64,000 nt of DNA from Longimicrobiales bacterium (GCA_958296005.1 CATQHQ010000002.1:614501-678500), one strand, 5' to 3'; positions 25 through 6,955 are shown, counted from the first letter of the stretch. Notes: generated by a model from the letters alone, not told the origin. Made by a program: numbers and translations.

Positions 25-852
25 ATGGAGATCATGGAGCGCGCCCGACGCTGGGAGGCTCGGGAGGCGGACGCCTACGTGAGCGTCTTCTATGGCTACC
101 CGTGGTCCGACGTACCCGACGTGGGCGCCACCGTCCACGTAATGACGAACGGCGACCAAGCCCTCGCCGACCGCATCGCCGACGACATGGACGACTTCAT
201 CTGGCGCGTCCGGGAGGAGTTTGCCGTCGGCGGCTACCCCGGCCCGACCGAGGCGGCTCGGCTGGTGGCGGAGGCCGTAGCTCGAGGCGAGACCCCCGTG
301 GCCGTGGGCGACCACAGCGACCGCCCCGGCGACGCCACCCATCTCCTGGCGGCGTTCGAGACGGCGGACATCGGCAAGGTGCTGTACGGGACGATTACCT
401 CCCCGTCCGCCTTGGAAGCCCTTGCCCGCACCGGCGCCAGCCCCGGCGACGCGTTCGACATGGAGATCGGCGGCTTCACCCCCTCGGGCGGCGCCGCGTA
501 CCGGGTGCAGGGCACGCTGGAGTACTTCGGCGAGGGCCTGGGCTACGAAGCGGTGGCGGCCGTGTCCTTCAACGACGGCAACCTGGTCGTCCTCACGCCC
601 GCCTATAGTCAAGTCCTCTACCCGGACGCCTTCCGGCTAGGTCCGATCGACCCCGCCGCCTACGACGTGTTCGTCGTCAAGTCCCGCGTCCACTTCCGGC
701 GGGGCTTCGACGAGACCGGCTTCGCTCGGACGATCGTGGTGGCCGAGGCGCCGGAGCCGTTCGTGGGGACCACGTTCCTGGACGCGCTTCCCTACGAGAA
801 CGTGGACCTGGGGACGCTGTACCCCTACGGGACGCCGGAGGGGCGGCGGTGA
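25..852 (+). CDS. M81 family metallopeptidase (MlrC / microcystinase C-like), probable C-terminal part; gene likely begins upstream of window
   Basis: Translation (DADAYVSVFYGYPWSDVPDVGATVHVMTNGD... ETADIGKVLYGTITSPSALEAL) resembles MlrC N-/C-terminal domain proteins; open frame reaches close to the window edge. Confidence 0.65.
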   Translation: MEIMERARRWEAREADAYVSVFYGYPWSDVPDVGATVHVMTNGDQALADRIADDMDDFIWRVREEFAVGGYPGPTEAARLVAEAVARGETPVAVGDHSDRPGDATHLLAAFETADIGKVLYGTITSPSALEALARTGASPGDAFDMEIGGFTPSGGAAYRVQGTLEYFGEGLGYEAVAAVSFNDGNLVVLTPAYSQVLYPDAFRLGPIDPAAYDVFVVKSRVHFRRGFDETGFARTIVVAEAPEPFVGTTFLDALPYENVDLGTLYPYGTPEGRR

Positions 853-955: not shown

Positions 956-2386
956 ATGACGGCGAGTTCACGACCAGACACGATCTTTCTTGCGGAACGG
1001 TTCCGCTTGGTGGAGCGGGGCCGCGAGCGAGGCAAGAACAACATGCCACCCCCGACCCAGCCGGGGTTGGATCTTGTGGAAACAGAGGTAGTCGATCATT
1101 GCGGTCGTCTCTTCGGCGAAAAGAAGGACGCATACCGTCGTGCTGTTCGATTGTCCGAGGAGCGCATCGTCTCCCCGGCTTCAGCCACCGACCCGGAAGC
1201 GGCCGTTGAGGAGGCTTGCGACCGAATGAAAGCCCGTGTCGACGAGGAACGACCGGAGCTGAAGAGCCTACACCGGTCGGCTCAAAAGGCGATCGACGAA
1301 CTGAGGAAGTTCAAGGATGATCACGGACTGTCTCGGGATGCCCATGTACCCAAGAGCGCGGTCATGTCGGTTGCTATATTGGCAGCGTTGCTAGTAGGCG
1401 AGACGTTGATTAACGGACTGTTCTTCGGTGCGAACTTGGCCGGGGGACTTATTGGTGGGATTAGCTATGCCGTCCTGATAAGCTTCATCAACGTGGGCGT
1501 CTTCGGATTGCTTGCTGCGGGCGCAGTTCGGCAAGTTCACCATCGCGACCAGTCGCGACAAGTCGTAGGATACCTAGGCTTGGTTCTCGTGGTTGCCGCA
1601 GCGGTTGTGTGGAACTTGGCCGTGGCACACTACCGGGAGGCTCTGCCGGCCGACTACCCTCCAACTCCAGAAGTCGTCGGCGAAGTGGCTGCGAGCGCCG
1701 ACGCCGAGGTCTCCGAGTGCTGGGAGGGTCCCAGCGAGGCCGACGCCGACGGCGAGGCTATCTGCCTGCTGTTGAGCAAAGGATTCTCGCTGAACGGCTT
1801 CCAGTCCTACATGCTAATGTTAATTGGGTTGTTGATGTGCGGGGGCGCGGCGTGGAAGTGGCTGGATATGAGCGACCGGTACCCTGGTTTCGGGCAGTTG
1901 GAGAAGCAGAGGCGGGAGACAGAGAAGCACCTTCTCGACGAACGACAAGATCTGCTGGCCGATCTGGACGACGACTTGCAGTCCGCCGTGACTAAGCAAC
2001 ACAGCATCTTCAACGATCCGGCAGACGCTTGGACGCGAGCCGCGAAGGCCTTCGACGACCTCAAGCAGGGCCACGAGGAGTTGTGCGACTTCGCAAAGGA
2101 CCTGGAGGAAGAATGCCGAAGCGCTATTGAGACGTATCGGTCTGCGAACCGAGAGGCGCCCCGCAGCGAACCGGAGCCTGCCTTCTGGTCGAAGCCATGG
2201 ACGGCGAGTTGGGAGTTGCCTGATGCGCCGGCCGAGGGAGAGCGCGAGCTCGAGGATCGACACCAGGCAGAGGCCAGGAGCGAGGTCGCGCGCGACGAGA
2301 GGGACCAACGCCTGGCAAAGCTTCGGCAGTGCGCTGAGGGGTGCAAGGTTGAGGTGGAACAGATCACCAGGATCAGCTATGAGTAG
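956..2386 (+). CDS. Hypothetical membrane protein with about 4 TM helices flanked by charged/coiled-coil cytoplasmic segments; first gene of 4-gene operon
   Basis: ORF 476 aa; hydrophobic stretches VMSVAILAALLVGETLINGLFF, ISYAVLISFINVGVFGLLAAGAV, VVGYLGLVLVVAAAVVWNLAVAHY, FQSYMLMLIGLLMCGGAAWKWL; stop overlaps start of next ORF. Start could also be ATG near 1043. Confidence 0.75.
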   Translation: MTASSRPDTIFLAERFRLVERGRERGKNNMPPPTQPGLDLVETEVVDHCGRLFGEKKDAYRRAVRLSEERIVSPASATDPEAAVEEACDRMKARVDEERPELKSLHRSAQKAIDELRKFKDDHGLSRDAHVPKSAVMSVAILAALLVGETLINGLFFGANLAGGLIGGISYAVLISFINVGVFGLLAAGAVRQVHHRDQSRQVVGYLGLVLVVAAAVVWNLAVAHYREALPADYPPTPEVVGEVAASADAEVSECWEGPSEADADGEAICLLLSKGFSLNGFQSYMLMLIGLLMCGGAAWKWLDMSDRYPGFGQLEKQRRETEKHLLDERQDLLADLDDDLQSAVTKQHSIFNDPADAWTRAAKAFDDLKQGHEELCDFAKDLEEECRSAIETYRSANREAPRSEPEPAFWSKPWTASWELPDAPAEGERELEDRHQAEARSEVARDERDQRLAKLRQCAEGCKVEVEQITRISYE

Positions 2387-3200
2387 AAGATCTCGAAGGG
2401 ACGCCGAGAGAAAGAAGACGATCCGAGCGGTCGTGGTGATTGCAGCAAGCGTTCTGGTGCTATGCTTCTTCCTCATACTTGGCCAAATGAACCGCCCCCA
2501 GACTGATGCGAACGGTTGTCCCCGGGACGATCGCTTTGCGGCGCAGGTCGCCGTGCTTCTCGACCCGTCTGACGCCCTGAGCTCCGTTCAACACCGTTCG
2601 GCCCTACCGCAGCTCCTCGAGGCGCTGGAGGAGGTGCCGGAAACGGCCGAGGTTCGCGTCTACGCGGCTGCGAGCATCGGACGGGACGGCGATGCCGGCG
2701 CCGAGCTTCGGGTGTGCGTACCTCCCCACCCCGACAGCATTGGCACGCTCGAGGGCTTGTCGAAGAACCGGGTGATTGCTGCAAGGCAGTACGAGGAGCA
2801 GTTCATTCAGCCACTTCGCCAACGCCTGGGCGAGTTGCTGGACGCGCCCAGCGACACGGTGTCGCCCATCGTGGAGGCAATACAGGCCGCCGCCGTGGAC
2901 GCCTTCCAGCCCCGGAACGCAGATATCCCGCGAGCATTCATCGTCGTGTCCGACATGGTCCAGCACTCCAGCGACCTTTCGTTCTTCAGGGACGCTCCAG
3001 ACTTCGGTCCCTTCGCAGGCAGGCCCGATTACGCGACGCTCCGGGTGGACCTGAGCGGCGTTCAAGTTGAGGTCTTTCTGCTTGCCCGTCGCGGCGCTGC
3101 TGGACGACTCCAAGCCGGCCGGATGCAGGAGTTCTGGGAAGACTACTTTCTAGACCAAGGAGCCGGCAGTCGGCCTAGCTGGGTCCCCATAGAAGGATGA
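2379..3200 (+). CDS. Membrane-anchored protein with vWA-like fold candidate
   Basis: In-frame ATG at 2379 (MSRRSRRDAERKKTIRAVVVIAASVLVLCFFLILGQ: N-terminal TM anchor) then AVLLDPSDALSSVQ... SPIVEAIQ... RAFIVVSDMVQHSSDLSFF, the order of motifs expected for a vWA-type Rossmann fold with a variant MIDAS. ATG overlaps the upstream gene by 8 nt. Confidence 0.7.
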   Translation: MSRRSRRDAERKKTIRAVVVIAASVLVLCFFLILGQMNRPQTDANGCPRDDRFAAQVAVLLDPSDALSSVQHRSALPQLLEALEEVPETAEVRVYAAASIGRDGDAGAELRVCVPPHPDSIGTLEGLSKNRVIAARQYEEQFIQPLRQRLGELLDAPSDTVSPIVEAIQAAAVDAFQPRNADIPRAFIVVSDMVQHSSDLSFFRDAPDFGPFAGRPDYATLRVDLSGVQVEVFLLARRGAAGRLQAGRMQEFWEDYFLDQGAGSRPSWVPIEG

Positions 3201-3228
3201 CAACACCTCGTAGTCGGATTCCGATCAC

Positions 3229-4677
3229 TTGAACGCCAAGGAGCACGAGCGCCAACAGCAGGCGCACCGGAGGGCGTGGTTCGTATTGCTTGCGACAGGG
3301 ATCCTGTTGCTCTTCTTGTTCAATCTCATTGGCTTTAGCGGATGGGTTGCCGCCATTTTTCTTACGGGTCTCGTTGCCTTATACTACGTCACGGCGCGGA
3401 AGCAGACTGACGTGTCAACCGACACCAAGGGCGACGGGGTCTACTACTTGGGACTCTTGTTCACCTTTGCTTCACTGGTTGCTGCGCTGGTCGCATTTAC
3501 TCGTCAAGATGCAGATGCGGTCGATACGGGTGCGCTGATCGGCAACTTCGGCATCGCCTTGATGACGTCGATTGCAGGACTTGCTGGGCGAGTGCTGTTC
3601 TCCATGTGGCAGGAAGCGCCCGGCGACTCCGTTGCCGCGGCAACTCGGGGGCTGGACGAAGCCATCGGCGACATGAAGGCGATCGTCGTGCGGGGTGGAC
3701 AGCGAATGGAGGACCTCGTAGGCCACCTTGGCGAATCGGCGACGGCGCTCGAGAAGACCACAACGCACATTGCGGCTACGGCGGAGAGGGCGGCCGACAC
3801 CGCCGACACTATGGACGAGTACTCCGGCAGGGTGGCCGGACTGGCTCGATCCTTCACGGGCGGCGCAACCGAGCTTGGAGCGGCCATGACGGCGATCTCC
3901 AGAGGCGTCTCGGATCTGAAGGAACCGTTGGAGCATGCAAGAGGCGGCGTGGCCGGCTTGAGCAACGACCTTGGTCGGCTGGGCGGCGCCGTGGAGCAGG
4001 TCGAAGCGACGGCGCTGAAGTTGGACCGCGCCGGTCGCGACGCGGAGCGTGAAGTCAAGGGCGTGGCGTCGCGCGCCGAAGGGGTGCGGCGGGAGATGGA
4101 GAAGATGCAGGCAGGGTTTTCCAAGTCGGCGGCGTTCTTCGACGGCACAGAGCGCACCGTCGCGGCGGTCGATGACTATGTTGCCAGGATCGGCAGTTCC
4201 GTCGGTGCCTTTGCAGAGGAAGCTGCCAGGCTGCAAAGGGCTGCTGCGAGAGCGATGGAAGCCGTGGGGGGAGTGGGTCCGAAGCTCGAAGGCATGGGCT
4301 CGAGGATTGGAGAGGTAGCGTCGGAACTGGAGGCGACCACGTCGCGAGCGGCGTCCCTGGGCGAGAGTCTGTCGGAGCTGTCCGACGCTGCGGTGCAGGG
4401 CAGGGAAGAGATGAACGCAGTGTCGGGCCGCGTGAGGGATCTCGAAGGAAAGCTGGCTGGTGCCGGAACCGAAACCGAGGCGATGATCGGCCGTGCCGGC
4501 AGCCGTGCGGATTCCGTGGCCGCCGACCTCGACGGCTTGCGGGATCAGCTGACCGAGACTCAGAAGCAGCTGTCGGAGATAACTCGCGACAGCGCTGTTG
4601 TGGCGAAGAAGCTGAGACGGCGCCAAGAAGGATGGCGGCGGTTCATTTTCTGGCGACGTAGATCAAAGCGTCAGTGA
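3229..4677 (+). CDS. MotA/TolQ/ExbB/ZorA-like proton-channel candidate with long C-terminal coiled-coil tail
   Basis: Four hydrophobic segments incl. YYLGLLFTFASLVAALVAF and IGNFGIALMTSIAGLAGRVLFSMW (GLLFTF...ALMTSIAG pattern), followed by about 350 aa of heptad-rich Ala/Glu/Arg sequence. TTG start. Confidence 0.6.
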   Translation: MNAKEHERQQQAHRRAWFVLLATGILLLFLFNLIGFSGWVAAIFLTGLVALYYVTARKQTDVSTDTKGDGVYYLGLLFTFASLVAALVAFTRQDADAVDTGALIGNFGIALMTSIAGLAGRVLFSMWQEAPGDSVAAATRGLDEAIGDMKAIVVRGGQRMEDLVGHLGESATALEKTTTHIAATAERAADTADTMDEYSGRVAGLARSFTGGATELGAAMTAISRGVSDLKEPLEHARGGVAGLSNDLGRLGGAVEQVEATALKLDRAGRDAEREVKGVASRAEGVRREMEKMQAGFSKSAAFFDGTERTVAAVDDYVARIGSSVGAFAEEAARLQRAAARAMEAVGGVGPKLEGMGSRIGEVASELEATTSRAASLGESLSELSDAAVQGREEMNAVSGRVRDLEGKLAGAGTETEAMIGRAGSRADSVAADLDGLRDQLTETQKQLSEITRDSAVVAKKLRRRQEGWRRFIFWRRRSKRQ

Positions 4678-4687
4678 GGCCCAGGGC

Positions 4688-5875
4688 ATGTCGATGCTTC
4701 CAGCCGAGAGGACGTACTACCGCAAGGGCTTGGCCCTTGGACTGACGCTTGCAGAGACGTTCAGCATCGTGGTCTTCATCCTGCTCTTGGCGTGCGCGCT
4801 GCTCCTGCGCACCGCCACCGACTCTCGCGACGAGGCGCAGGAACAGCTGGACGAGTCCGAAGTGGACTTGGCGATCGCGACGGAGATGCTGCATCACGGG
4901 GACACGTCTTGGGTCAACACCGACGTTTGGTTCGAAGAAGCGCGACGGCTGCGGACGGAGCTTGGGGTCGTGCGAACTCAGCTGGTGCAGGTGGAGGCGG
5001 AGCGCGTGCGCGCTGATGCACGAACGCAGGAGGCTCGCCTCCTTCTGGAGTCTGCCGGAGTGGACCCGGAGGGCGTCGCCCAAGAGTTGCTGGAGCGGTC
5101 CGCAGATTTGGCGGCCGCTCGCGATTCCCTGCAGCGCGCAGAGACCCGGTTGCAAAGCCAGGGGGCCCAGCGGGATTCCTTGGAGGAAGAGGCAACCAAC
5201 GCCGAACGACTTCGCCAGGCAGTCGGCGGGGCGGTTGCGGAGCGGGACGGCAGCCTTGCTCCGTCGCAGGTGGATTCGGTGGTCGCGCAGGCGGCCCGTG
5301 CCGAACAGTTGGCCCAGGAGCTGACCGACGCCCGCGATGCCATCGGGTCTTTGGCCGCGCGACTCCGGGAGGCGGAAAGGCTCATGTCCAGCGACTCGGT
5401 CGGGCGGTCGCGCATTGAGCGGGACTCCCTGCAGAACGTCCTCGCAAGAGCGGAACAGGAGCGGGACGACGCCGTAGACCGGGCCGAGTACCGGGAAGGG
5501 GAACTTCGCCGGTTTCGCCAGGGCACCGGGATAGACCCGCCCCCGTGCTGGCTTGATGCCGACGGCAACCCCGAATACATCTTTCGCGTCGAGCTGACCA
5601 ACGGCGGGATGATCTTGCACAGGGTTCCGACACACCGCGTTGACGACGAAGCACTGTGGTACGCCCAGTGGATAGAGGACGGACGGGAATACGCTCCATC
5701 CGAATTCCGGGCGCTGACCCGCCCGATCTATGAAGCAGGACTCCGCCGAACCGTCGCATTTGGGCCGACAGGGTGCCGGTTCTGGGTCCAGCCGGTCGAC
5801 CGGACCGGCGCGAGCAAGGACGTCTTTCGGCTACGCGAGCGAGAGCTGGGACAGCGTTTCTGGTTCCGCTGGTAG
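4688..5875 (+). CDS. Single-TM protein with acidic TM residue, coiled-coil stalk and C-terminal globular domain (MotB/ZorB-like topology)
   Basis: MSMLPAERTYYRKGLALGLTLAETFSIVVFILLLACALLL N-terminal TM with embedded Glu; central coiled coil; C-terminal PPPCWLDADGNPEYIFRVELTNGGMILHRVP... domain. Starts 10 bp after the channel candidate. Confidence 0.6.
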   Translation: MSMLPAERTYYRKGLALGLTLAETFSIVVFILLLACALLLRTATDSRDEAQEQLDESEVDLAIATEMLHHGDTSWVNTDVWFEEARRLRTELGVVRTQLVQVEAERVRADARTQEARLLLESAGVDPEGVAQELLERSADLAAARDSLQRAETRLQSQGAQRDSLEEEATNAERLRQAVGGAVAERDGSLAPSQVDSVVAQAARAEQLAQELTDARDAIGSLAARLREAERLMSSDSVGRSRIERDSLQNVLARAEQERDDAVDRAEYREGELRRFRQGTGIDPPPCWLDADGNPEYIFRVELTNGGMILHRVPTHRVDDEALWYAQWIEDGREYAPSEFRALTRPIYEAGLRRTVAFGPTGCRFWVQPVDRTGASKDVFRLRERELGQRFWFRW

Positions 5876-5932
5876 CCCTGCCGGGATTAGATTTATCGGT
5901 GTCCCGCGACTTCAACCCATGAAACGGACCGG

Positions 5933-6955
5933 ATGAAGCCCGACCGAGAACAAGTCGCACGCTGGAAGAAGGTGCTCTCCCCCTACTTCGGCCCCGACAA
6001 CGCCCGGAGTGCCGGACAGCTGGCCACGACCGCGACCCTGCTCGCCGCCTCTTGGGCCGCGACCTACTACAGCATGGCCGTCGGCTACTGGCTGACCGTG
6101 ATCCTCGCAGTCCCCACGGCCGCGTTCCTCATGCGGCTCTTCATGATCCAGCACGACTGCGGCCACGGGTCCTACTTCCGATCCCAGAAAGTGGCCAACG
6201 CCGTCGGCTTCGTGATCGGGGTACTGGCCCTGACGCCCTACCACTACTGGCGGAAGACCCACGCGATCCATCACGCCCACGCCGGCGACCTGGACCTGCG
6301 GGGCTTCGGCGACATCAGCACGAAGACGGTCAAGGAGTACGAGGCGATGTCCCCCTGGATGCGCCTGGGGTACCGCGTCTACCGCAACCCCTTCGTCATC
6401 TTCGGACCCGGAGCGGCGTTTCACTTCCTGATCAAGCACCGCTTTCCGTGGGACGCACCCCGGACGTGGAAGCGGGAGTGGCGCTCGGTGTGGTGGACCA
6501 ACGCGGCCCTGGCGGGGATACTGGTGCTGGCGTGGGCAACGATCGGGCTGGATCGCTTCCTCCTCGTGCAGCTTCCCGTCACGCTCAGCGCCAGCGCGAT
6601 CGGAGTCTGGCTGTTCTACGTTCAGCACCAGTTCGACGACGCCTACTGGCGCTGGCACGAGGAGTGGAACTACTTCGACGCCGGCCTCCACGGGTCGTCG
6701 TTCCTGAAGTTGCCGAAGCCGCTCCAGTGGCTCACCGCCAACATCGGCCTGCACCACGTGCATCACCTGAGCGCGCGCATCCCCAACTACCGGCTGCAAC
6801 GCTGCCACGACGAGAACCCCGAGCTGTGGGCTGCGCCCAAGATGACGATCCGCGACGGCCTCAAGACGCTCAACTTGGCCCTCTGGGACGAGGGGCGCCG
6901 CAAGTTGATCTCGTTTCGGGAGTACCGGCGGCGGTTCCGGGCGGCCAGCGCCTAG
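5933..6955 (+). CDS. Fatty acid desaturase
   Basis: Histidine boxes HDCGHGS, HAIHHAH, HHVHH in a multi-TM protein. Confidence 0.92.
   Translation: MKPDREQVARWKKVLSPYFGPDNARSAGQLATTATLLAASWAATYYSMAVGYWLTVILAVPTAAFLMRLFMIQHDCGHGSYFRSQKVANAVGFVIGVLALTPYHYWRKTHAIHHAHAGDLDLRGFGDISTKTVKEYEAMSPWMRLGYRVYRNPFVIFGPGAAFHFLIKHRFPWDAPRTWKREWRSVWWTNAALAGILVLAWATIGLDRFLLVQLPVTLSASAIGVWLFYVQHQFDDAYWRWHEEWNYFDAGLHGSSFLKLPKPLQWLTANIGLHHVHHLSARIPNYRLQRCHDENPELWAAPKMTIRDGLKTLNLALWDEGRRKLISFREYRRRFRAASA

Follow-up and report, generated by a model that had tools for sequence, protein, structure and literature searches.

A four-gene membrane operon shared by Gemmatimonadota and alphaproteobacterial plasmids appears to encode a ZorAB-class motor with two previously undescribed partner proteins

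In Zorya, an aspartate of ZorB packs against a ring of serine and threonine residues in ZorA and is crucial for defence, which also requires ion flow (PMC11890865). Here we describe a four-gene operon, g1 to g4, that is very probably built on a motor of the same ZorAB/MotAB class. The four closely spaced genes, all encoding membrane proteins, occupy positions 956 to 5875 of the plus strand in a 64,000-nucleotide (nt) stretch of a Longimicrobiales genome (GCA_958296005.1, CATQHQ010000002.1:614501-678500), referred to below as the window. The presumptive motor subunits are encoded by g3 (3229..4677; 482 amino acids [aa], TTG start), a ZorA/MotA-class protein with several transmembrane (TM) segments and a long coiled-coil tail, and g4 (4688..5875; 395 aa), a ZorB/MotB-like protein with a single TM segment. 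Upstream lie g1 (956..2386; 476 aa), whose four-TM product extends long helical arms into the cytoplasm and matches no family, and g2 (2379..3200; 273 aa), whose product has a single TM segment followed by an extracytoplasmic vWA domain. A preliminary description of this DNA had claimed four same-strand open reading frames (ORFs) with an 8-nt overlap (g1/g2) and gaps of 28 nt (g2-g3) and 10 nt (g3-g4), and the ORF coordinates agree. Its account of the membrane character and domain layout of the four proteins also held, as did the absence of ZorC and ZorD genes next to the operon. None of the four proteins scored above the cut-off in Pfam or NCBIfam. Against PADLOC-DB 2.0.0, g1 and g2 had no match, and g3 and g4 gave only weak ZorA or coiled-coil matches, with no system specifically matched.

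The 482-aa g3 product, which the preliminary description had called MotA/ZorA-like, has four TM segments within its first ~125 residues and then a helical tail of ~350 residues. Its TM part matched ZorA2 profiles (E value, 1.7e-4), and ZorA2 recurred among the 5027 PADLOC models. The predicted pore helices TM3 and TM4 (YYLGLLFTFASL ... FGIALMTSIAGLAGRVLFSM; 3442..3600, plus strand) carry an invariant T79 and a threonine or serine at 113 and 114; these residues were present in all 14 g3 sequences. When we compared g3 with ZorA proteins of the same phylum using hhalign, TM3-TM4 and the pore helices of ZorA aligned in register (E value, 1.8e-4). The score was 38.1; a reversed profile scored 20.7, and none of 100 locally shuffled profiles exceeded 32.6. 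Both the profile matches and this register support the MotA/ZorA-like assignment. The cytoplasmic helical tail (3601..4674, plus strand) ends in a basic tip (WRRFIFWRRRSKRQ), found in 10 of 12 g3 proteins from Gemmatimonadota. A tail-end motif common to both phyla that carry the operon (see below) was considered and dropped, the basic tip being restricted to Gemmatimonadota.

The g4 product consists of one TM segment, a helical stalk and a C-terminal domain of ~115 residues. Within the TM segment, Glu23 (4754..4756, plus strand) aligns with the ion-binding aspartate of ZorB, a correspondence that comes from a weak alignment of 24 columns. This glutamate is invariant: the two main alignments show it in 11 and 7 rows, and a third, which partly overlaps them, in every one of its 14 rows. 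At the corresponding position, ZorB has aspartate in 8 of 8 sequences read. The periplasmic stalk (4820..5521, plus strand) leads to what we call the "PPCW" domain (5522..5872, plus strand), with invariant Cys287 and Cys363. This domain takes the place of an OmpA-type domain, which ends most of the alphaproteobacterial g4 orthologues read; that of Paracoccus matched ZorB2 with E values of 5.4e-25 and, in another search, 1.6e-17. Beyond this system, the PPCW domain was seen only as fragments. One such fragment (L172, 7090-9686) lies near a ThsB-like TIR protein and an integrase-like ORF.

The two partner proteins are conserved along with the motor subunits. Orthologues of g1 are 44 to 47% identical in close relatives and 21% identical in a distant Gemmatimonadota locus (L023), and g1 was found in no other systems in the libraries searched. 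The vWA domain of g2 (2541..3188, plus strand) follows the single TM segment and is probably periplasmic. D62, D65, S191, D192 and Cys113 of this domain, together with Cys47 just ahead of it, were invariant in 16 of 16 sequences. The AlphaFold model of g2 (predicted local distance difference test score [pLDDT], 66) has the vWA topology b-a-b-b-a-a-b-b-a-b. vWA and I-domains dominated a fold search of the PDB with this model (best E value, 1.1e-4); a sequence search against the PDB gave no match. In the metal-site motif, Dx[ST]D and SD are invariant, and the complete DxSxS of the canonical metal ion-dependent adhesion site (MIDAS; DxSxS...T...D) is absent.

We determined how widely the four genes occur together. 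Among 99 genomes of the order, a search with the N terminus of g3 was positive in 12, most of them from one genus, and the order g1-g2-g3-g4 was kept in 11 of the 11 first relatives. Scanning genome contigs with short g4 patterns gave 16 loci, all in Gemmatimonadota metagenome-assembled genomes (MAGs), some of them the same genomes as in the first search but from another collection. Fourteen of these loci hold the complete set; the order of the four genes is unchanged at L042-L053 and L056-L058. At L054 (9528-11131) and L055 (8144-9439), g4 is truncated or frameshifted and at most a g3-like fragment remains, so these are apparently decaying copies. L023 has a complete set with 21 to 28% identity per gene. 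Outside the phylum, tblastn with g2 matched plasmids of Rhizobium, Sinorhizobium, Paracoccus, Microvirga and Tistrella, and g1 and g2, used as separate queries, each matched 24 plasmid records with an identical genus tally. All 12 alphaproteobacterial plasmid loci read have the four genes adjacent and in order; where annotated, three of them are listed as hypothetical proteins and the remaining one usually as an "OmpA family protein." Profile-profile comparison across the phyla gave E values of 5.8e-51 for g1 (443 columns), 1e-50 for g2, 2.9e-26 for g3 and, in the TM segment only, 9.5e-11 for g4. The four genes thus co-occur across two phyla, Gemmatimonadota and Alphaproteobacteria, with hosts among sponge symbionts and, for the plasmids, soil bacteria. 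In the window, the operon is flanked by two plus-strand genes outside the system, the C-terminal part of an MlrC/M81 peptidase gene (25..852) and a fatty acid desaturase gene (5933..6955). The interval between these flanks is variable: in genome G319 it holds other genes, and the desaturase of G035 is found in a different context. We found no matching description in Pfam, NCBIfam, PADLOC or open papers, nor any paper on a Zorya-like system that includes a vWA protein or a thermonuclease. We conclude that the four-gene module is accessory and mobile, and that the system is real and conserved and apparently undescribed.

Eight of the 12 alphaproteobacterial loci have a gene for a staphylococcal-type thermonuclease (SNase) next to the operon, in three arrangements. 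It is downstream and convergent in L063, L071 and L074, which are closely related to one another, and also in L066, where one small gene intervenes; upstream and co-directional in L069 and L072; and downstream and co-directional in L065 and L070. It was not beside the operon in the Sinorhizobium B11, Paracoccus and Tistrella loci. At the N terminus, the SNase proteins have a hydrophobic, signal-like stretch; as judged by eye, they retain the DGDT, Arg, DxPE and GR residues. An SNase gene also lies 1.1 kb downstream of g4 in L023, followed by an SNF2 helicase gene. That helicase matched ZorD1 (E value, 4e-40), yet it matched BrxH, DrmD and HmaA better. The genes packed downstream of g4 at this locus (1254-6559) comprise the SNase, the SNF2 helicase and a 697-aa cysteine-rich protein. 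Since the SNase gene is retained in changed positions, a functional link between it and the operon is suggested.

Taken as a whole, we read the operon as encoding an accessory and mobile ion-driven motor of the ZorAB class that acts in envelope defence against invading DNA, whether of phages or of plasmids, and we give this reading a probability of roughly 0.55. Several results weigh against it. The likeness of g3 to ZorA spans just 53 columns (E value, 1.8e-4; hhalign probability, 48%), the monomer model of the g3 N terminus is of low confidence (predicted template modelling score [pTM], 0.33), and a fold search with the g3 model gave no significant match, the top nonsignificant one being a chemoreceptor; the structural claim for g3 therefore rests on its sequence. 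The PPCW domain had no detectable similarity to OmpA. Pairs of g1 and g2 occur with no recognised motor genes nearby (L059, 9055-11258; L060, 7440-9604; L061, 8532-10681), and hence g1-g2 could be a module in its own right. The window's genome, which is 92% complete, yielded no SNase. If g3 were instead a membrane protein of chemoreceptor-like or unrelated coiled-coil type, the operon would not encode a motor at all. Besides the fold match, g3 has a weak match to MCPsignal (E value, 0.0023) and coiled-coil matches, and one alphaproteobacterial orthologue is annotated as a methyl-accepting protein. However, the coiled-coil matches fall in the tail and are nonspecific, whereas the TM pair with T79 and T/S 113-114 matches ZorA better than the shuffled controls do. 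The acidic residue in the TM segment of the adjacent g4 also argues against this reading, as does the ZorB-like OmpA domain of its alphaproteobacterial orthologues. We consider a chemoreceptor-like g3 improbable, its TM part being ZorA2-like. That the operon is a divergent Zorya subtype within the known family seems to us scarcely more than a slim chance. The best defence-profile matches are indeed ZorA2 and ZorB2, and the g3 cytoplasmic tail is long. However, g3 scored 13.8 bits against ZorA_1 (curated cut-off, 190), and the best alphaproteobacterial g4 scored 64.3 bits against ZorB2 (curated cut-off, 400). The TM residue is glutamate where true ZorB proteins have aspartate, and g1 and g2 are conserved partners foreign to Zorya. 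ZorC/D, ZorE and ZorF/G effector genes were found neither beside the window operon nor in the annotated plasmid loci. In genomes G017, G071 and G135, loci in which ZorA and ZorB precede two genes the size of ZorC and ZorD lie at other sites, and since Zorya-type loci thus lie elsewhere in several relatives, the operon is not Zorya. Four such loci (L107, L108, L110 and L111) are separate from the four-gene operon.

What the motor does is less firmly indicated than its class. Defence is the likeliest use, to which we would give about even odds. The preliminary description had proposed a test for defence-island enrichment. The 90 proteins neighbouring the operon include DISARM DrmD (L016), a DrmD/BrxH-like helicase (L023) and BREX BrxC (L019), but 88 proteins from control regions in a subset of the same genomes matched at least as many kinds of defence family. 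No enrichment was seen, which counts against defence, and the defence-gene neighbours are not evidence for it because the control regions are equally rich. The phage records and IMG/VR contigs searched held zero copies of the operon, a further point on the same side. With no support from the neighbourhood or the phage and viral searches, the case for defence rests on the analogy to Zorya, the accessory distribution and the nuclease. The same ZorAB-class motor might have a nondefensive role in the envelope or in uptake, such as Tol-Pal-like energisation, adhesion or scavenging of extracellular DNA with a secreted nuclease. The vWA domain, the OmpA-type domain and the SNase are all probably active outside the cytoplasm, which favours such a role, as do the lack of defence-island enrichment and the absence from phage records. 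However, a patchy, site-variable and plasmid-borne distribution with decayed copies would be unusual for a core envelope function, and the nearest relative of the motor is the antiphage ZorA2; we regard a nondefensive role as rather unlikely. Two observations concern defence genes in the regions read: the Gemmatimonadota control regions L115-L126 are rich in matches to DrmD, type IIG restriction-modification, ShosA and SoFic, and in Sinorhizobium fredii pSfreNXT3b a PD-Lambda-1 antiphage gene (L066, 14437-15912) lies near the operon.

For an envelope-defence motor of the ZorAB class, the four proteins may work as follows. They would form one inner-membrane machine, in which g3 and g4 would be an ion-driven motor of the MotAB/TolQR/ZorAB class, presumably with 5:2 stoichiometry. 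The ion path would run between Glu23 of g4 and the ring of Thr/Ser residues on TM3-TM4 of g3; g3 would rotate around g4, carrying its long cytoplasmic tail with it. The periplasmic domain of g4 (OmpA-type in Alphaproteobacteria, PPCW in the window) would be fixed in the envelope. The vWA domain of g2 would probably sense or grip a ligand, either of the envelope or incoming, and g1, with its cytoplasmic arms, would probably couple the g2 signal to the motor tail. In some branches, the machine may cooperate with the secreted SNase-type nuclease. A more specific version is tentative: a vWA-gated motor would sense incoming DNA or a breach of the envelope and, in several lineages, act together with SNase, so that nucleic acid would be degraded in the periplasm before it could enter the cell.

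To our knowledge, very few 5:2 ion-driven motors have been assigned a function. The system described here would add another motor of this class, with two conserved partners of its own. If it is defensive, ZorAB-type motors would have been recruited more than once, and motor-driven immunity could operate together with an extracytoplasmic nuclease. The operon is on conjugative plasmids of tractable laboratory bacteria, which makes its function directly testable; on pRL11 of Rhizobium johnstonii 3841, for example, it comprises RL_RS31080-RS31095, beside the thermonuclease gene RL_RS31100, and Glu28 is the counterpart of Glu23.

The likenesses to known proteins can be summarised as follows. Like the vWA proteins BatB and the integrin I domains, g2 has a predicted vWA fold, whose strands 1 and 4 carry acidic residues resembling those of a metal site; unlike them, it has no Pfam vWA match, has a degenerate Dx[ST]D instead of DxSxS, is probably periplasmic and carries a conserved cysteine pair. 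With MotAB, TolQR and ExbBD, the system shares the TM3-TM4 signature and an adjacent acidic partner with one TM segment, and the OmpA-type domain of alphaproteobacterial g4 is MotB-like. It differs from them in its long coiled-coil tail, in its two extra conserved membrane partners and in the absence of flagellar, Tol and TonB genes; three further MotA_ExbB-family genes are present, separately, in the window's genome. The closest counterpart is the antiphage 5:2 motor Zorya ZorAB, which is also accessory in distribution. Its A subunit likewise has several TM segments, threonine or serine at pore positions and a long helical tail in the cytoplasm, and its B subunit has a single TM segment with an acidic residue, together with a domain in the periplasm. 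In contrast to Zorya, the system described here has glutamate rather than aspartate, a compact TM region and no ZorC, ZorD or ZorE; it also has g1 and the vWA protein g2, a PPCW domain in place of OmpA and, in some branches, a secreted SNase.
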